64,000 nucleotides of DNA, taken from Photobacterium iliopiscarium (lineage in GTDB: Bacteria; Pseudomonadota; Gammaproteobacteria; Enterobacterales; Vibrionaceae). A program made the translations under genes and the position numbers. Positions 43,157 through 58,438 of this stretch are shown piece after piece. Within the stretch, counting starts at the first letter, position 1; every line of letters begins with the position of its first letter. The DNA lies in assembly GCF_003026395.1 (NCBI RefSeq), contig NZ_PYOO01000003.1, positions 1 through 64,000 of the forward strand. Direction: 5' to 3'. The notes under the pieces were generated by a model. The model saw nothing but the letters and a program-made list of their open reading frames with translations. It ran no database searches and was not told where the DNA came from.

Positions 43157-46072
43157 TTAATTATTAAGGAAAGTGGTTGCTAAAGCGGCAACAGATGCAT
43201 CAAATACTTGTTGTAATGGTGCGACATCTAACTCAGCAATCGACCCTTCTTGTGCCGATTTTTCAAACGTTAAGCATAACTGATATAGCTGCATTAATCC
43301 CATCGTACCAGCAGCACCTTTAAGGGTATGGGCTTGTTTAGCGACATCCGATAAATTGTTATCAGCAATCGCCTGATGCAATATTACTAATGTCTTACTC
43401 GCAGAATCACCAAATAAACCAATTAACTGTTTTACTTGATCTTCACCTAATACTTGCAGATCACTGCCTAAAACAGATTCTTTCACTAAAGGAAATAACT
43501 CATCAGTCTCAATTAGTTGCGGCTTTTCTTCTCCCGCCCCTTTTTCAATAACCACTCGCTTATCTCCTTTTAAAATACTGTTCATAGTATCAATTAATTG
43601 TTGTTCAACTAATGGTTTAGGTAAGAAGCCAGCAAAACCTGCATTTAAATAAATTTCGACTTCCTCTCTAAATACATGGGCAGAAAATGCAACCATCGGC
43701 GTCGGCTCTTGCCACGTATTTTTATTACTACTATCAATACGGCGTAATTGATGCAATAGCGTCACACCATCAGTATCAGGTAAATTAATGTCCAATAACG
43801 CTAAATCAAACTGTTCATTACGGTAAAACTGCTCTGCTTGTGCGCCATCTTCAGCAATAACCACACTATGGCCAAGCCGCTTAAGAAAACCTTCCGCAAC
43901 CATACTGTTCACGGGGTTATCTTCAACCAATAAAATATGTGCCGCTGGAACGAGCACTTGGTCAACATCGGTATTCAATCGCTCTTGACCCCGTTCTAGA
44001 GGTAATGAGAACCAGAAACAACTCCCCGTATTAGCAATTGAATCAACACCTATCTCACCATCCATAGCAGCAACAATATGTTTACTAATGGCTAAACCAA
44101 GTCCTGTCCCTTCAATCGCCTTACGTCCCGCTTCTGCTTGTTGGAACGCGTTAAATAATAACGATTGTTCATGCGTCCCAATACCAATACCAGTATCTTG
44201 CACTGAGAATAATATTTCACCTGGCATATCAGGATGTAGCTGAACAGTAATGGTAACTTTACCTTTATCGGTAAATTTAATCGCATTACCCACTAAGTTT
44301 ACTAGCACTTGTCGAATTCGACTTTCATCACCAACCCAAATAGCATCAACATCAGGTTCAATATAATATTCAAGTCCAATTCGCTTTGCCATTGCACGCC
44401 CTTGAAGCATGTTAAACACATCAACGACCATACGTTTTAAAGCAAAATCACTCGATCTTATGTCCAAATGTCCGGCTTCAATCTTAGAATAATCAAGGAT
44501 GTCATTAAGGATATCTAATAATGTTTCACCACTGCGATTAATCACATCTAAATAGCGTTTTTGTTGTGTGCTTAACGCAGTATCAGCTAATAATGATGCC
44601 GTACCTAACACACCATTCATCGGTGTTCTAATCTCATGACTCATGGTCGCTAAGAATGCTGACTTAGCACGGTTCGCTTTTTCAGCTTCATCACGCGCTT
44701 TATAATGGTTGTAGACTTCTTCATTTAAACGACTATTAATACGTTCTAATTCACCGGTTCGCTTGGCAACTAACCGCTCTAAACTGGCTTTGTGTTGTTG
44801 TAATTCTTGACGAATTTTAGCTTCAGCTTGCGCTAATCGATGTCGTTCACTCGCAGTATCACGTGCCACTAAAATAGCCCGCCCCATTTGTGCTAATTCA
44901 TCGTCACCATCAACATCTAATTGAATACATAAGTCACCGCGCGCCAGTGATAACAAGGCTCGGCTATAATGGTTAATACGACAAACAACGCGAACATAAA
45001 CAATACGCCACATAATTAACACTAAAGCGAGCAGCCCAATAGCTGAAATAACAATTAGCGTATTACGCGCAACAGTCAATGTCTGGTCAACCTGCTTAAC
45101 GGCCTGTTGAGTATTGGTATTAGCCGCAGCAATAATATTATCAACCGTGCTGTTTAACTCTTGGAACAAGACTAAGTTTTGTTGATCTAGTCGTTGTACA
45201 TCTTGTTTGGCATAAATAAGCTGCTCACTAACCCCAAACAACAGATTTCCACGCTCAAGTTTAGCCGTTTGTTTGAGTAGCTGCTCTGAACGGCTAGGAT
45301 CTTCAACCGATTTAACCCGATGACTGATAATATTGACCGCATTGTTAAAACGCTTTTTCAATGCCACCAGCGATTTAATATCCATAATACGTTCAGAATC
45401 ATCAAGCATATTAATTACTTGTAATGATAAAAAGCGTAATTCAAATAACCGCTCAGACAAGTCCATATCAACTTCTACTAAGCTATCAAGCGCGTTATAG
45501 ACCGCAGGTTTATTATTTTCAGCCACTAAATCATAAATACGCGATACATTAGCAACGGCTATCGTATTGGCATTAGCAACTTGTGATTGTGATAAGCTAT
45601 CGATTTGATGAGTGGCTTTGGTCATTACCGCCGTTAATTCATCTAATTGACTTTGCAAATCGATTTGTCGACCAACCAATAATCCAAGTAAGGCTAAATT
45701 ATCAACAATACGCTTTACGTCATCTTCAAGTTTGAGCATTAGCGGTTGATCAAACGAATACTGCTCAAGGGCATGTAGGCTACGTGTTAAAGCTTCAATA
45801 TGTACCGTTAATGCTCGCCCTTGTTGCATCCGTTCTGATTCAAGTTTCGACTTAGCTAAGACTTGGGCATTAAATATAATTCGAGAGCTCAAATCTGATA
45901 ATTTCCTAGCTTCAGCTAATGAAGGTACTGCGGAATTAATAACAGTACGTTCAGTTTTAGCGACTAACGAAAAGCCTGCAACACCAATCATAACCGCTAT
46001 AATCATTAAACCAGCCATGGCAGAAAAGGCTAATAACAGTTTGGCTCCGATACCTTTTCGGGTAAACGTCAT
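43157..46072 (-). CDS. torS: TMAO sensor hybrid histidine kinase TorS
   Basis: A 971-residue tripartite sensor kinase. TM1 spans about 13-35, a long helical periplasmic sensor spans 36-335 and TM2 about 338-360. HAMP, HisKA with His479 in ATMSHEIRTPMNG, and an HATPase follow (NAIKFT, DTGIGIG, GTGLGL). A receiver with Asp761 in LALLDINLPDTDG and a C-terminal Hpt with His915 in AHTLKGAAGTMG complete the phosphorelay. This matches E. coli TorS order. It is divergent from torT, whose product presents TMAO to TorS. The partner response regulator TorR is not encoded in this window. Confidence 0.93.
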   Translation of the reverse strand: MTFTRKGIGAKLLLAFSAMAGLMIIAVMIGVAGFSLVAKTERTVINSAVPSLAEARKLSDLSSRIIFNAQVLAKSKLESERMQQGRALTVHIEALTRSLHALEQYSFDQPLMLKLEDDVKRIVDNLALLGLLVGRQIDLQSQLDELTAVMTKATHQIDSLSQSQVANANTIAVANVSRIYDLVAENNKPAVYNALDSLVEVDMDLSERLFELRFLSLQVINMLDDSERIMDIKSLVALKKRFNNAVNIISHRVKSVEDPSRSEQLLKQTAKLERGNLLFGVSEQLIYAKQDVQRLDQQNLVLFQELNSTVDNIIAAANTNTQQAVKQVDQTLTVARNTLIVISAIGLLALVLIMWRIVYVRVVCRINHYSRALLSLARGDLCIQLDVDGDDELAQMGRAILVARDTASERHRLAQAEAKIRQELQQHKASLERLVAKRTGELERINSRLNEEVYNHYKARDEAEKANRAKSAFLATMSHEIRTPMNGVLGTASLLADTALSTQQKRYLDVINRSGETLLDILNDILDYSKIEAGHLDIRSSDFALKRMVVDVFNMLQGRAMAKRIGLEYYIEPDVDAIWVGDESRIRQVLVNLVGNAIKFTDKGKVTITVQLHPDMPGEILFSVQDTGIGIGTHEQSLLFNAFQQAEAGRKAIEGTGLGLAISKHIVAAMDGEIGVDSIANTGSCFWFSLPLERGQERLNTDVDQVLVPAAHILLVEDNPVNSMVAEGFLKRLGHSVVIAEDGAQAEQFYRNEQFDLALLDINLPDTDGVTLLHQLRRIDSSNKNTWQEPTPMVAFSAHVFREEVEIYLNAGFAGFLPKPLVEQQLIDTMNSILKGDKRVVIEKGAGEEKPQLIETDELFPLVKESVLGSDLQVLGEDQVKQLIGLFGDSASKTLVILHQAIADNNLSDVAKQAHTLKGAAGTMGLMQLYQLCLTFEKSAQEGSIAELDVAPLQQVFDASVAALATTFLNN

Positions 46073-46220
46073 AAATAGTCTCTATCTCAAAAATCTTGTT
46101 TAGAACAGTGAATAGTCAGCATTAATATGCCTTGTTCGATACTGGCTATTTCACCAGACACAATAAAACGGTACTATTTTGCCAGCGATATGGCTTTAGA
46201 CCTAAATAATGTTGGTAACA
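46073..46220. promoter_or_regulatory. torS-torT divergent control region with tor-box-like decamers
   Basis: CTGTTCTAAA (minus strand, ending at 46108) and CTTGTTCGAT (46131-46140) partly match the E. coli TorR decamer CTGTTCATAT. They may mark autoregulation, but matches this short are weak. Confidence 0.35.
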
Positions 46221-47291
46221 ATGCGTATTTTATTTTTTATTTTGATGATTTTCTCTGCTCAATCCGCATTTGCGCTTGAGATTATTTCATATCAACCGCC
46301 TTTCAAAGCGGATAAGCAACCGACCAAAATTCAATATTCTTTTTTAACCTCGGTTTCTAAATCGTGGAAAGTATGTGCAGTGTACCCACATTTAAAAGAC
46401 TCTTATTGGTTATCGATCAATTATGGAATGGTTGAGCAAGCAAAAAAACTCGGTATTACCTTAAAAGTGCTTGAGGCTGGCGGTTATAGCAACCTCGAAA
46501 AACAACAAAGTCAGTTAATTGCTTGTCGTCACTGGGGGGCGGATGCCATCATTCTAGGCACCGTTGATACCCAAGCTTATAACGGTAAGTTATCTGCATT
46601 AATTGGCAATATCCCGGTATTTTTAATGACCAATGATATCGATTTTACCGATCCAGATATTCGTCAACATGTAAAAGCAAAAGTTGGCGTTGATTGGTAT
46701 GAAATGGGTAAAGCTGCTGGCACTTATCTCGCAAAACAGCACCCTAAAGGCTCAGGCAAAGTCCGCATTGCATGGCTACCAGGACCACAATTACGTGGTG
46801 GAACTAAACCGGTAACAAAAGGTTTTAAAGCGGCAATTGCCAATAGTGATATCGACATTATAACGACGCTATGGGCTGACAACAGTAAAGAACTCCAACG
46901 TAACCTATTGCAGCAATTATTTACTGATTATAAAAACATTGATTATATTGTAGGTGGTGCAGTAGCTGCTGAAGTTGCCATCAGTGAATTACGAACCAAT
47001 CATATTTCCAATATAAAAATTGTATCCACGTATCTCAGTCATGGGGTTTACCGAGGCTTACGTCGCCATAAAATCCTCTTTGCACCAACAGATAAAATGG
47101 TTGAACAAGCGCGACTATCAATAGATCAAACAGTACGTTACCTTGAGAAAAAAACGATCGCTCTAGATATTTCACCATTAATTGTTGATTTAACACCACA
47201 ATATTTACCATCAACCGTTATTCGTGATTCATTGTCACCCGCAGAATTTAGACCTTCATTTTACGTCAATGATCATCATATCAGTCGATAA
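46221..47291 (+). CDS. torT: TMAO periplasmic binding protein TorT
   Basis: A 356-residue periplasmic sugar-binding-like protein that binds TMAO and signals to TorS; E. coli TorT is 342 residues. The signal peptide MRILFFILMIFSAQSAFA favours the ATG at 46221 over an upstream ATG at 46209. Fold motifs SYWLSINYGMVEQAKKLG, CRHWGADAIILG and KVRIAWLPGPQLRGG fit the type I periplasmic-binding fold. It is divergent from torS, as in E. coli. In E. coli torR lies nearby; here the next gene is mgsA. Confidence 0.92.
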   Translation: MRILFFILMIFSAQSAFALEIISYQPPFKADKQPTKIQYSFLTSVSKSWKVCAVYPHLKDSYWLSINYGMVEQAKKLGITLKVLEAGGYSNLEKQQSQLIACRHWGADAIILGTVDTQAYNGKLSALIGNIPVFLMTNDIDFTDPDIRQHVKAKVGVDWYEMGKAAGTYLAKQHPKGSGKVRIAWLPGPQLRGGTKPVTKGFKAAIANSDIDIITTLWADNSKELQRNLLQQLFTDYKNIDYIVGGAVAAEVAISELRTNHISNIKIVSTYLSHGVYRGLRRHKILFAPTDKMVEQARLSIDQTVRYLEKKTIALDISPLIVDLTPQYLPSTVIRDSLSPAEFRPSFYVNDHHISR

Positions 47292-54044: not shown

Positions 54045-55217
54045 TTATTCTGCTGCTTGTGGGGCTGCCACAGGTGCATCTTTCGCATTATCTTGAAGAT
54101 ACTTAAGCAATGTGCGCTCTTCATCTTTATCTAGCATGTAGTATTGTTGCATCGCTTTTAGACCTTGAACCCAACCATTTGCAGTTAAGTGTTTTGGATC
54201 TGGAATAGCGTGACATTGACTACATGTTGCATCAAGAATTTCTTTACCGTAAGCCCAAATAGGCTTCATGCTCGCTAGCATATTACGCTGAGTGATCCAT
54301 GCTGATACTTGTTCTTGCTGCCATGTCTGACCATCTTCAGTTTTTACTGTATTTAAAATCGTTGCTGACTTTTGTAGGTCTGCATTTAGAGAGACAGTTT
54401 GAATTTGCTTCGCCATGTCTTGTACTAACATACCTGTTGTTGAGCCTTGTTGCTGCCAACCTGTAATTTGTACTTTGATCATGTCGCCACTTGTACCTAG
54501 CACTTCAACTTTTGATGCTGGGTATAATTGACCTTGTGCATCACCTGATGCTGAGTCAGTGGTATATAGTTTTTTAGACGCTAACGTATAAAGTGTTTTA
54601 GTCGCAGGCGCTTCACCAGCATTAATCGTTAATTGTTTGAACGTTGCTTTGAAATCATTATTGATGTGCGGTAATTGGTGCGCAATACCTTTATGACATT
54701 CAATACAGTTCATATTTTTTGCCGCTGCTGTTGTCATTGCTGCTGCCGCTGCTGGAGATTGCTTCGCGTGATCCATAGCAGTGTATGAGTGACAACTCTT
54801 ACATGTTGCTGAATTTGTTTCAGCCATCATACGCCATACGTTTTGAGCCATACGTAAACGGTTTGCTTCAAACTTAGCTGGAGTATCAATATCTTTACTG
54901 ATAAATTCGCTGTAAATATCGCCAACACCACCTAATTTTGCTTTCATAAACGCAATAGGATCATTTTCTGGAATATGACAATCACGACATTCAGCACGTA
55001 CGCCATATGCGTTTTTGTAGTGAATACTTGTTTTATATTCGTTGTAGTTTTCTTTCATTGAGTGACATGAAGTACAAAACTCAGTAGTCGAACTAAACTT
55101 TATCGATTCGTGAAAGGTAAATACGCCGGCCAATGTTATGATCACACAGACAACTGCAATCGCTAATACTGAATAACGACTACTTGGCTTTACTAAAAAA
55201 CGCCATAGTTTCTTCAT
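54045..55217 (-). CDS. torC: Pentaheme c-type cytochrome TorC
   Basis: A 390-residue membrane-anchored quinol-oxidising cytochrome. The N-terminal anchor spans about 16-36. A NapC/NirT-type tetraheme domain has CxxCH motifs starting at Cys48, Cys77, Cys139 and Cys171. A linker follows, then a C-terminal monoheme domain with Cys332-Cys335-His336. The five hemes match TorC/TorY of TMAO reductase systems, which pass electrons from menaquinol to TorA. The gene is divergent from torA rather than upstream of it in one operon, unlike E. coli torCAD. The last domain closely resembles an extra domain at the end of TorA. Confidence 0.93.
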   Translation of the reverse strand: MKKLWRFLVKPSSRYSVLAIAVVCVIITLAGVFTFHESIKFSSTTEFCTSCHSMKENYNEYKTSIHYKNAYGVRAECRDCHIPENDPIAFMKAKLGGVGDIYSEFISKDIDTPAKFEANRLRMAQNVWRMMAETNSATCKSCHSYTAMDHAKQSPAAAAAMTTAAAKNMNCIECHKGIAHQLPHINNDFKATFKQLTINAGEAPATKTLYTLASKKLYTTDSASGDAQGQLYPASKVEVLGTSGDMIKVQITGWQQQGSTTGMLVQDMAKQIQTVSLNADLQKSATILNTVKTEDGQTWQQEQVSAWITQRNMLASMKPIWAYGKEILDATCSQCHAIPDPKHLTANGWVQGLKAMQQYYMLDKDEERTLLKYLQDNAKDAPVAAPQAAE

Positions 55218-55795
55218 GGATGGTCCAAAATGAATTAAACGTCAAAACAACGTTAAAAAAAGAGTTGCGCACAAACTAACATTTGAATATGAACAGGGCA
55301 ACGCCTTCAATTCACATAAATAAATATTCTAAACACAACTAATCATATGATTGTGTTAGACTTTATAAAAATCATTATTTACTTAGATGTCTAATTACAA
55401 TTAAACTATAAATAGTGTTTTACAGTTTAAGTATAAATGCTAATTAAACAATGTTATAAATAAAAACAATCCTATTAATCAATGAATTAACAAGCAACAA
55501 TACCGCCACCCATACGGTATAACCAGCTCAAAGTTGAACCTATCGAGAATAATTATCAATCCATTTTTAGTTGCTGTGCTAAGTACTTTTCTATTTATAT
55601 AGAGCATTAAACATTACATATTGTGGTGCCTTTTTGTGATAACTTATTTTTCATTTAGCAGTCTAATATATTTTATATTTCCGTGTAGCCTATCAAGAAA
55701 TAAGTCAAATAATAGATCACTATACCGATAAATATTATAATGATTATTATGTCATTAAAATGCTTATTCATTCGGTTTGTCTTCGGAATATAAAC
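55218..55795. promoter_or_regulatory. torC-torA divergent control region
   Basis: About 580 AT-rich bases between the two starts. It holds an exact tor box at 55287-55296. A perfect palindrome AATCATATGATT lies at 55341-55352. Arms AACACAA (55332-55338) and TTGTGTT (55351-55357) are also present. No gene seen. Confidence 0.7.
55287..55296 (-). promoter_or_regulatory. TorR-binding decamer (tor box)
   Basis: The minus strand reads CTGTTCATAT, identical to the E. coli tor box consensus bound by TorR. It lies about 70 bases upstream of torC. Only one exact copy is visible; E. coli has several. Confidence 0.65.
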
Positions 55796-58438
55796 ATGAC
55801 CCTATCACGTCGTAACTTTTTAAAAGGTTCAGTAGCAACGGCTATCGCTGCTAACGGACTCACCCTTTTTCCTGCTGGAAAGGTATTTGCTTCAGATACA
55901 ATTACCATTCCATCAGCTACTCACTATGGTCCGTTTAAAGCAGTCGTTAAAGGCGGTACATTAATTGGTGTTCAACCGATTAATGATGTCGACCCCTTCC
56001 CAACAGAAATGTTAACTAAAGGTGTCTTGAGTCGTACTTATAGTGATACACGTATCAAATATCCAATGGTACGTAAGTCACTATTAGAAGATCCATTGGG
56101 CGATCACAACCCGCATCTTCGTGGTAAAGAACCTTTTGTTCGCGTTGATTGGGATACAGCAATCGCATTAACCGCATTCTGTATTGCTCGTACTGTTGAA
56201 AAACACGGTAACGAAGCAGTCTTCAGTTCATCATACGGTGGTTGGTCACACTGTGGTGTTAACCGCCCTCAAACACTACAAGGTCGTTTCTTCAACCTTA
56301 TTGGTGGCCAAAGTATCTGTGCTGGTGACTATTCAGCAGGAGCTTCTGAAGTTATCCTTCCACACGTTATTGGTGATATGGAAGTATACTCACCACAAAC
56401 TGCGTGGGAAATTGTAGAGAAAAACACTGAAGTTGTTCTTTTAATCGGTTGTGACCCATGGAAAACCAACCGTGTAGAATTCCGTGTTGCTGATCACTCT
56501 ATGCAAAAACATTGGGAAGCGTTTAAGGAAAAAGGGATTAAGTTTGTCTCTATAAACCCACAACAAACCCAGACAGATAAAGCAGTTGGTAGTGAAATGA
56601 TCAATATCCGTCCTAATACGGATACTGCCCTATTTACTGCAATGTCTTACCATCTGTACAAAACAGGCCAACACGATAAAGCTTACATCGATAAATACAC
56701 TGTTGGTTTTGATAAGTACCTTGCTTACTTAATCGGTGACGAAGATGGTGTTGTTAAAACACCAGAGTGGGCTGAAGAAATCACAGGTTTACCTGCTGCT
56801 AAAATTAAAGAACTCGCTGAACTTTGTGTGACTAAGCGTACCCAAATTGCGGCGGGTTGGGCACTACAACGTGCTGACCACGGTGAGATGATTCACTGGT
56901 CTATCATCAACTTTGCTGCAATCGCAGGTAAAATTGGTAAGCCAGGTGAAGGTGCAGGCTTTAGCTGGCACTATGGTAATGGCGGTATGCCTGCTTCTGG
57001 TAAGCGTATGCCTATCGGTTTATCACAAGGTCGTAACCCTATCACTAAGACATGTCCTGTGGTTATGGTTTCAGATATGCTGAAAAACCCAGGTAAAGCT
57101 TACACTCGTGATGGTTCAAACCTTACACTACCAAAAGCAAAACTTATCTATAACGCAGGTAATAACTTACTGTCTCACCAACAAGACACTAACGAATTAA
57201 TCAAAGCGCTTAACGATAATATCGATACCATTATCTGTCACGAACCTTGGTGGTGTGCTACGGCGAAATATTCTGATATCGTTTTGCCAACAACAACCAC
57301 ACTTGAGCGTGACGATATTTCATCAGGCGGTACTTACAGCAACAATAAAATCTACGCGATGCGTCAGGTTATTGAGCCTGTAGGTGAAAGCTTAGATGAT
57401 TACGAAATCTTCTCACGCCTTGCTTTCATGTTTAACGTACATAAAGAGTTTACCGAAGGTAAAACTATGTACCAACATGTTAAAGCCTCTTATGAAGCAT
57501 CTGATGCAACGGATGATTTCAAAACATTCTGGCAAAATGGTATCGCTCACGTATCAACACCTGCGGCGGCAAATAGCTTTGTGCGTCATGGTGATTTCTA
57601 CGCAGATCCGATTAAGAACCCACTGCATACACCAAGTGGTAAAATCGAATTATATAGCTCAACGATTGCTGGATTTAAAGCAAATAGTTGTCCACCAATG
57701 CCACAATGGATCCCACCATTTGAATGGCTAGGTAATGCGAAGAAAGGTCAAGTACACGTACTAAGCCCACACCCATGGATGCGTTTGCACTCACAAATGG
57801 CGAATGCGGATGTGAATAGCTACGAGTCTGTTGATGGTCGTCAAATCGTACTCATCAATAAAAAAGACGCTGAAGAACGTGGCGTAAAAGATGGCGATGT
57901 TGTTGAAGTTTATAATGACCGTGGTGTACTACTAGCGGGTGCCCGTATCACTGCTGAAGCAATGCCGGGTGTTATTTACATCCACGAAGGCGCATGGCTA
58001 CAACTTGATAGCAAAGGCCGTTGTAACTCAGGCTCAATCAACATGCTAACAAGTAGTCAACCAACCAGTGGTTTAGCACAAGCAACCAGTGCTAACACCT
58101 GTTTGGCTTACTTCAAAAAATGTACTGATGCCGAAACGCCAAACCAAGCATACACGCCAGCTAAAGTTGTGAAATCAGACTTTAAAGTGGATATCTGGTC
58201 ATTACAATTAGGTAAGCGCTTAAAAGCCGTTGCCGCAGAAAGTGGTCCTGAGCAATCACCTGGTGAGAAGTTATTCTACGGTAGCTGTACCCTTTGTCAC
58301 GCAGCACCACACCCAAGTGACTTCACTTACAAGCAGTGGAAAGGTATTACTAACAGTATGTTCCCACGTGCAGGTCTAAACGAAAAAGATCGCAACCTTG
58401 TACTTGATTTCCTACAAAAGAACGCTAAAAAAGGCTAA
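55796..58438 (+). CDS. torA: TMAO reductase TorA with a C-terminal cytochrome c domain
   Basis: An 880-residue periplasmic molybdoenzyme from the ATG at 55796, which starts a textbook Tat signal (SRRNFLK, cut near VFA at residue 32). The DMSO-reductase-type core has the Mo-ligand Ser180 in CAGDYSAGASEVILPHV, and GGTYSNNKIYAMRQV further on. The core ends near residue 810. Residues 815-880 add a heme c domain with CTLCH (Cys831, Cys834, His835) and a possible axial Met855, absent from E. coli TorA. This tail aligns without gaps to the last heme domain of TorC. No torD chaperone follows; a terminator does. Confidence 0.93.
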   Translation: MTLSRRNFLKGSVATAIAANGLTLFPAGKVFASDTITIPSATHYGPFKAVVKGGTLIGVQPINDVDPFPTEMLTKGVLSRTYSDTRIKYPMVRKSLLEDPLGDHNPHLRGKEPFVRVDWDTAIALTAFCIARTVEKHGNEAVFSSSYGGWSHCGVNRPQTLQGRFFNLIGGQSICAGDYSAGASEVILPHVIGDMEVYSPQTAWEIVEKNTEVVLLIGCDPWKTNRVEFRVADHSMQKHWEAFKEKGIKFVSINPQQTQTDKAVGSEMINIRPNTDTALFTAMSYHLYKTGQHDKAYIDKYTVGFDKYLAYLIGDEDGVVKTPEWAEEITGLPAAKIKELAELCVTKRTQIAAGWALQRADHGEMIHWSIINFAAIAGKIGKPGEGAGFSWHYGNGGMPASGKRMPIGLSQGRNPITKTCPVVMVSDMLKNPGKAYTRDGSNLTLPKAKLIYNAGNNLLSHQQDTNELIKALNDNIDTIICHEPWWCATAKYSDIVLPTTTTLERDDISSGGTYSNNKIYAMRQVIEPVGESLDDYEIFSRLAFMFNVHKEFTEGKTMYQHVKASYEASDATDDFKTFWQNGIAHVSTPAAANSFVRHGDFYADPIKNPLHTPSGKIELYSSTIAGFKANSCPPMPQWIPPFEWLGNAKKGQVHVLSPHPWMRLHSQMANADVNSYESVDGRQIVLINKKDAEERGVKDGDVVEVYNDRGVLLAGARITAEAMPGVIYIHEGAWLQLDSKGRCNSGSINMLTSSQPTSGLAQATSANTCLAYFKKCTDAETPNQAYTPAKVVKSDFKVDIWSLQLGKRLKAVAAESGPEQSPGEKLFYGSCTLCHAAPHPSDFTYKQWKGITNSMFPRAGLNEKDRNLVLDFLQKNAKKG

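Follow-up and report, generated by a model that had tools for sequence, protein, structure and literature searches.

When E. coli respires trimethylamine N-oxide (TMAO), TorA is fed by the C-terminal heme domain of TorC, and passages of PMC11727998 describe this domain as modelled moving between the tetraheme part of TorC and the TorA funnel, 35 and 17 Å from the molybdenum (Mo). Clade II nitrous oxide reductase (cNosZ) appears in the excerpted text of PMC11102522 as a terminal reductase that has a Sec-type signal and an extra heme domain of c type at its C-terminus, and the three-domain copper nitrite reductase of Ralstonia pickettii (RpNiR) is presented in part of PMC13324648 as bearing a C-terminal cytochrome c on a 36-residue linker. 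Our study concerned a TorA-like reductase gene with a C-terminal heme c domain (the tail), encoded beside torC in Photobacterium iliopiscarium on a stretch of 64,000 nucleotides (contig NZ_PYOO01000003.1, positions 1 to 64,000), here called the window. The findings suggested, at a probability of roughly 70%, that the product is a periplasmic Mo N-oxide/S-oxide reductase of the TorA/DorA family in which electrons enter through a monoheme cytochrome c attached by a tether. We found no account of the fusion, or of the clade of tailed enzymes reported here, in the open-licence literature, as far as the available portions of those sources go.

On the window TorA, PF00384, PF01568 and PF18364 all exceeded their cutoffs (Molybdopterin, 1.8e-48; Molydop_binding, 5.1e-24), placing it in the dimethyl sulfoxide (DMSO)/TMAO reductase family, type III, with a bis(molybdopterin guanine dinucleotide) (bis-MGD) site. 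A phmmer search matched it to DMSO reductase 1eu1 (E = 4.6e-183, with GDYS opposite GDYS) and to chain 9h4t, TMAO reductase 1 (E = 2.5e-143). The NCBIfam model bisC_fam (TIGR00509) was covered from position 1 to 765 of 772 at 831.8 bits, below the cutoff of 1017.55, and the TorA equivalogs scored 605.3 bits against a cutoff of 1465 (TIGR02164) and 637.9 bits against 909 (NF011682). Because both equivalog scores lay below cutoff, we use the name TorA-like and do not call the protein TorA in the NCBIfam sense. The mechanical open reading frame (ORF) begins at ATG 55760 and encodes 892 aa, 12 residues more than from ATG 55796, which is the likely start and gives MTLSRRNFLKG. The Pfam TAT_signal model scored 21.0 bits on this protein, slightly below its cutoff of 22.7, and the mature enzyme has a mass of 93.6 kDa without cofactors. 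The solved chains 9h4t, 1tmo and 1eu1, which we take to come from E. coli, Shewanella and Rhodobacter, stopped aligning at query residues 788-791 of 892, and 9h4t reached residue 789 at most, bearing out the preliminary description of this DNA in its claim that E. coli TorA has no such tail.

In the numbering from ATG 55796, the tail contains Cys831, Cys834, His835 and Met855, with Trp at offset +17 and Met at +24; the residue numbers given earlier for the heme site were correct. The domain had been drawn as the last 50 residues (58286-58435, from the first Cys of CTLCH to the stop codon at 58436-58438), an extent that held for the heme residues and not for the start, which lies about 13 residues upstream in a GEKLFY segment, near 58247. 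The coordinates of all features are collected in the table below.

Table. Features of the torC-torA locus and of its regulatory neighbours in the window.
Feature	Position	Strand	Remarks
Heme-tailed TorA-like reductase gene	55796..58438	+	880 aa from Tat-type start
Twin-arginine signal peptide, MTLSRRNFLKG...FA	55796..55891	+	From sequence; cleavage point estimated
Tether, molybdopterin-binding domain to heme domain	58139..58246	+	36 residues as delimited; 48 from Pfam match end
Monoheme cytochrome c domain (tail), ~63 residues	58247..58435	+	CTLCH 58286-58300; Met855 58358-58360
torC, membrane-anchored pentaheme cytochrome, divergent partner	54045..55217	-	NF011606, 474.6 bits (cutoff 455)
Divergent torC-torA control region	55218..55795		One exact CTGTTCATAT decamer at 55287-55296, - strand
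torS, sensor kinase	43157..46072	-	TIGR02956, 1233.8 bits (cutoff 676.5)
torT, periplasmic TMAO sensor	46209..47291	+	TIGR02955, 449.7 bits (cutoff 310)

The kinship of the tail with the last heme domain of the adjacent TorC, noticed by eye in the preliminary description, stood up to a statistical comparison. Aligned without gaps, the two share 16 of 48 residues, against a mean of 5.9 in 100,000 shuffles of the tail residues with both Cys and the His held fixed (p ~2e-5), and the remaining four TorC heme sites gave only 4-6 identities each. Window TorC, which scored 412.5 bits on a second model (TIGR02162, cutoff 478.2), has CxxCH motifs at residues 48, 77, 139, 171 and 332, and its Met356 lies at offset +24, the same as the Met of the tail. 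The NCBIfam torC model matched the tail alone at E = 1.6e-10 over model positions 324-380 of 387, and this match, together with CxxCH, W+17 and M+24, identified the tail as a relative of the TorC C-terminal monoheme domain. The shared Met proved general, since W+17 and M+24 were invariant in 39 of 39 tailed rows (33 distinct tails) and in 30 of 30 TorC C-domains; these 39 are the rows found by whole-protein search, and they are quoted because the 73 rows from the tail-motif scan would be circular for motif conservation. No Pfam cytochrome family exceeded its cutoff on the window tail (DHC 17.7 of 22.2, Cytochrome_CBB3 14.2 of 27, Cytochrom_C 14.6 of 21.3), and a search for a solved structure of the tail family returned general cytochrome c matches only, the best profile match (E = 5.6e-4) falling mostly on the CxxCH segment. 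As far as sequence can establish it, the tail was thus confirmed as a real monoheme cytochrome c domain homologous to the C-terminal heme domain of TorC.

The tail was widely distributed. In 197 Vibrionaceae genomes, 47 of the 50 listed matches with at least 60% identity ran to the tail end, and the three exceptions were due to a contig end (G150), an internal stop (G013) and a disrupted frame (G131). No other match in the list exceeded 42% identity, and all of these ended by residue 811, short of the tail. A frameshift artefact or a pseudogene as the origin of the tail was rejected, as it is open and conserved in these matches. Among the matches listed, 369 genomes of the class yielded one further tailed genome (G358), and 398 genomes of the phylum yielded G358 again plus G720 and G619 (family f223); in these large searches two to four candidates were scored per genome. 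An even draw of 295 genomes from family f223, searched with the tailed enzyme L069, contained at least 10 tailed genomes, with tailed matches at 55% identity or more and untailed ones at 46% or less. A tail-only scan of named genomes found 154 coding stretches, and the best 80 of these 154 came from Rhodobacterales, Kiloniella, Azospirillum, Pseudovibrio, several betaproteobacterial genera, Moritella, Amphritea and others. The tail sat on a TorA-like ORF in 79 of the 80 loci, the remaining one (L127) being a contig edge.

Mapping the CxxCH tail across TorA homologues, a check proposed in the preliminary description, confined it to one clade, with 112 of 171 collected reductase rows scored as tailed by the presence of CxxCH. 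These 112 rows represent 109 distinct genes, with repeats such as L001, which is the window gene, L224 = L069 = L097, and L230 = L070. The sole untailed row above 45% identity (L028) was cut by a contig end, so that no complete row in that range lacked CxxCH, which was also present in each of the 18 window-type rows whose C-terminus is complete (L001, L011-L027). Among 22 further weaker or fragmentary homologues, three had a CxxCH tail, all of them cut pieces of the tailed clade. Every complete, unbroken clade member listed was tailed, across alpha-, beta- and gammaproteobacteria. Regarding the question raised at the outset of whether the fusion is universal and long described, it was universal within the tailed clade as far as seen, and earlier enzymology that may already have described such an enzyme is discussed below. 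Two loci stood out in this collection. In a metagenome-assembled genome labelled as Thermus/Deinococcus group (L173), the tailed torA grouped with Thauera and G358, representing a misbinned contig or horizontal transfer. In Photobacterium sp. DA100 (L177, NZ_CP119424.1), the tailed torA was divided between two overlapping ORFs (570 and 366 aa), the second of which carried the tail; the split could reflect either a genuine frameshift or an error in sequencing.

In a tree of the molybdenum cofactor (Moco) domain (61 rows, 731 columns, short search, unrooted, with the window and L001 identical), a single change with a support of 100 parted 24 tailed from 37 untailed rows, and the window enzyme adjoined its own paralogue L002 and a Vibrionaceae relative. 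This paralogue is a second heme-tailed TorA in the source genome (G000:C1:473186-475855; region L178), 62% identical to the first and with no TorC within about 6-9 kb; the same genome also has four untailed paralogues of the TorA family, at 33-41% identity, and a TorC-like gene adjoins three of them. An unrooted tree of the heme domains, built from 43 rows and 62 columns and carrying a long-branch warning where the tails meet L216_C, had the tails on one side of a branch supported at 96/99 and the TorC C-domains, including that of the window, on the other. The tails are a separate group, which either is sister to the TorC C-domains or branched off from them long ago.

Where TorC itself occurs bears on both the origin and the function of the tail. 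In all 11 genomes checked, of at least 20 with the window-type copy, this copy stood divergent to a gene for a five-heme TorC. No TorC-like ORF (blastp E up to 1e-8) was found beside the tailed gene in the 80 named loci, within flanks that mostly span about 2.6 kb upstream of torA and 5 kb downstream, beyond which a more distant TorC would be missed; among the 79 loci with a torA ORF, the upstream flank covers 2 kb or more in 71 and the downstream flank 4 kb or more in 67. Likewise, the nine fetched regions with L002-type copies in Vibrionaceae contained no TorC-like ORF. Whole-genome searches of tailed genomes, among them three from outside Vibrionaceae (G720, G358 and G619), gave no TorC-like match in G720 at E up to 1e-20 and NapC-type matches only in G358 and G122, those in G358 to the first half of TorC; in G619, a full-length TorC adjoined an untailed torA. 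The simplest reading is that TorC became the partner of the heme-tailed enzyme within Photobacterium. One of the nine L002-type regions contained, about 3.5 kb from the tailed torA, a 748-aa ORF (L183:2800-5043) that has five CxxCH motifs and is not TorC-like. In a tenth region, from another Vibrionaceae genus (L187, G013:C16:67000-86000), both tailed types occurred within 10 kb, with the window-type torC and torA broken and the second tailed copy intact. Between window TorC and the TorC of L204, the C-terminal heme domain was identical at 35 of 64 positions versus 154 of 185 in the tetraheme part; in this comparison, made without a control of TorC beside an untailed TorA, the divergence of the C-domain might reflect relaxation because the enzyme has its own heme.

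The ratio of nonsynonymous to synonymous substitution rates (dN/dS) between the window and five relatives was 0.04-0.13 for the tail, 0.01-0.11 for the Moco domain and about 0.09-0.25 for the tether. In four of the five pairs the tether ratio was higher than that of either flanking domain; in the remaining pair (L015) it was marginally lower than that of the tail. These low ratios indicated purifying selection on the tail. A twin-arginine motif was present in 109 of 112 tailed rows, one of the other three being cut at its 5' end, under a loose motif allowing up to 76 residues around the mature start, a rule that was also positive in 27 of 59 untailed rows. The preliminary description had raised a puzzle of biogenesis, in that proteins of the twin-arginine translocation (Tat) pathway are exported folded and heme c is normally attached to unfolded chains; because the motif occurs in 109 of 112 tailed rows, this puzzle is real and holds for the whole clade. 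The source genome carries CcmF, of the cytochrome c maturation (Ccm) system, and three TorD-family proteins, none of these three being encoded on the contig of the window.

From these features, we infer that the folded molybdenum part would cross Tat first and that the Ccm system would then add heme to the short C-terminal tail in the periplasm. The tail heme, ligated by His835 and probably Met855, would receive electrons from a c-type cytochrome, here probably TorC and elsewhere others, and would move into the substrate funnel, held by its tether, and reduce the molybdenum, acting in cis as the TorC C-terminal domain acts in trans in E. coli. A built-in last electron step into the molybdenum site, as first proposed, is therefore a plausible reading of the sequence, in which heme attachment, the Met ligand, docking, the heme-to-Mo distance and the electron donor of the window enzyme are all predicted features, and TMAO is the presumed substrate from the neighbours (torC, torS, torT) and from kinship. 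The tailed genomes G720, G358 and G122, which have no full TorC-like protein, support an entry-port function. A broader version, to which we would give somewhat less than even odds, is that across the clade an apocytochrome tail crosses Tat behind a folded, cofactor-loaded domain and receives heme from Ccm later, and that in Photobacterium the TorC and tail hemes may act in series.

The preliminary description had proposed that the tail arose by domain copying, and a recent duplication in this lineage from the last heme domain of the adjacent torC would explain both the 16 of 48 identities with that domain and the position of torC 578 bases from the torA start. We consider such an event extremely improbable, as the tail is spread over three proteobacterial classes, with no TorC-like ORF in the flanks covered at the 80 named loci or in the nine L002-type regions, and the sister paralogue L002 is itself tailed with no TorC nearby. 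The window TorC C-domain was also nearer to most TorC C-domains (28-48 identities of 48 with 21 of 30, itself included, and 15-22 with the other nine) than to the 112 tails (12-16), although the ranges overlap at the far end with distant TorC C-domains; the window tail, in turn, shared 12-21 of 48 residues with TorC C-domains. The tree of TorC and TorA heme domains that had been suggested as a check placed the window tail and the window TorC on opposite sides of a branch, at 96/99 over 62 columns and with the long-branch warning given above, and copying from the neighbour was rejected by this tree and the Moco-domain tree alike. The tail appears instead to mark one clade of TorA-like reductases and to be old, not a local copy of the adjacent TorC. 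Of the two remaining alternatives, one holds that the tail serves chiefly for binding, oligomerization or regulation, such as TorC docking or funnel gating, with heme electron transfer secondary. The terminal heme retained by TorC in the Photobacterium group would fit such a role, as would the tethered cytochrome of copper nitrite reductase, which in the part of PMC13324648 available is said to have complex roles, with the tethered enzymes less active than untethered ones. The invariance of Met +24 and Trp +17 argues against it, and because the loci examined outside this group showed no TorC next to the tailed gene, TorC docking is unlikely as the ancestral role of the tail; overall, this alternative seemed unlikely to us. 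Somewhat less probable still is that the tail is a relic, TorC alone feeding the molybdenum in this Photobacterium group and the tail heme being redundant. The constant pairing with pentaheme TorC (11 of 11) and the weaker constraint on the tail than on the Moco domain in four of five pairs speak for a relic, while the tail dN/dS of 0.04-0.13 and the CxxCH kept in all 18 complete window-type rows speak against one.

Several of these observations, with others, weigh against the entry-port reading itself. The weaker constraint on the tail and the lack of a root in both trees temper our confidence in it; the single change on the Moco tree would be a gain, and because both trees are unrooted, gain and loss of the tail are not separable by them. 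Since TorC still has a terminal heme of its own, this organism might not need the tail, and since the torA and bisC_fam scores fell below their cutoffs, TMAO as the substrate leans on neighbours and kinship. The lower activity of tethered copper nitrite reductases noted above is a further caution. Published evidence on Tat export of an apo-tail is mixed, to the extent that the sections of PMC6708511 at hand represent it: export of a cytochrome c by Tat depended on the insertion of heme, and a single-chain antibody fragment (scFv) with an unstructured tail was not exported, whereas unstructured segments of 100-120 residues were tolerated.

Regulatory genes were found near tailed enzymes beyond the window, TorS-like in 36 of 94 loci and TorR-like in 28 of 94. 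Five neighbour clusters were examined by family search, each named from one member (TorS-like, TorR-like, MoeA, MoaA and DUF2478), and no separate cytochrome partner appeared among example members of clusters present in at least 6 of the 94 loci. In Rhodobacterales (L104, L105, L110, L118, L123, L141 and others), the tailed torA was often near TorS-like, TorR-like, moeA, moaA and DUF2478 genes, as if the genes for the enzyme, its control and its cofactor supply travel together. The decamer in the torC-torA control region of the window is presumably a TorR box. No exact copy occurred in three relatives, and the window count at one mismatch was 6, versus 6.9 in shuffles; because conservation was weak and the one-mismatch count was at shuffle level, we did not build upon this match.

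The tailed clade is widespread yet hidden, by generic plasmid annotation and by the lack of a Pfam cytochrome family over cutoff on the window tail: of six plasmid records holding the tail, five named the gene "molybdopterin-dependent oxidoreductase" and the sixth left it unannotated. Judging from the NCBIfam cutoffs, counts of marine TMAO respiration that use E. coli-type models could miss the tailed branch. The clade could be leveraged as a ready system for how c-type heme gets onto a Tat substrate and for how a heme reduces a bis-MGD site, a step modelled in E. coli, in the passages cited at the outset, with a mobile domain on a separate protein.

A TMAO reductase was reportedly purified from Roseobacter denitrificans OCh 114 by Arata et al. 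in 1992 (J. Biochem. 112:470; pmid 1337081, as listed among the references of PMC9391519). The R. denitrificans enzyme is said to consist of two identical subunits of about 90 kDa, to contain heme c and the molybdenum cofactor, to reduce TMAO, and to take electrons directly from soluble cytochromes c, including cytochrome c2. If the heme content ascribed to it holds, the literature may have included a TMAO reductase with heme c since 1992, and if the R. denitrificans enzyme is tailed, such enzymes have been familiar at the protein level for decades. Its subunit mass is close to the 93.6 kDa of the mature window enzyme, and its order, Rhodobacterales, supplied many of the best 80 named loci and at least 10 of 295 genomes of f223 with tailed TorA; it may be the product of a gene of the same clade, and the window enzyme differs in adjoining TorC. 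No near-identical match to the repC of pTB1 was found in the 295 genomes of f223 or in 21 of one genus. E. coli TorCAD shares with the window the Moco family, the five-heme TorC partner, and TorS and TorT, and a heme domain of the same family feeds the molybdenum there (PMC11727998, in part) and probably here. It differs in that its last heme is on TorC with none on TorA, and the window protein scores below the torA equivalog cutoffs. As far as the cited portions allow a comparison, cNosZ (PMC11102522) is likewise a terminal reductase with a C-terminal heme c domain; it is an unrelated copper enzyme, and its combination of a Sec signal with C-terminal heme c was absent from the window enzyme and from the 109 of 112 tailed rows that are of twin-arginine type. 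The linker of RpNiR (PMC13324648, in part) is similar in length to the tether of the window enzyme (36 versus 36-48 residues, depending on where the ends are placed), with both the enzyme and the cytochrome being unrelated.

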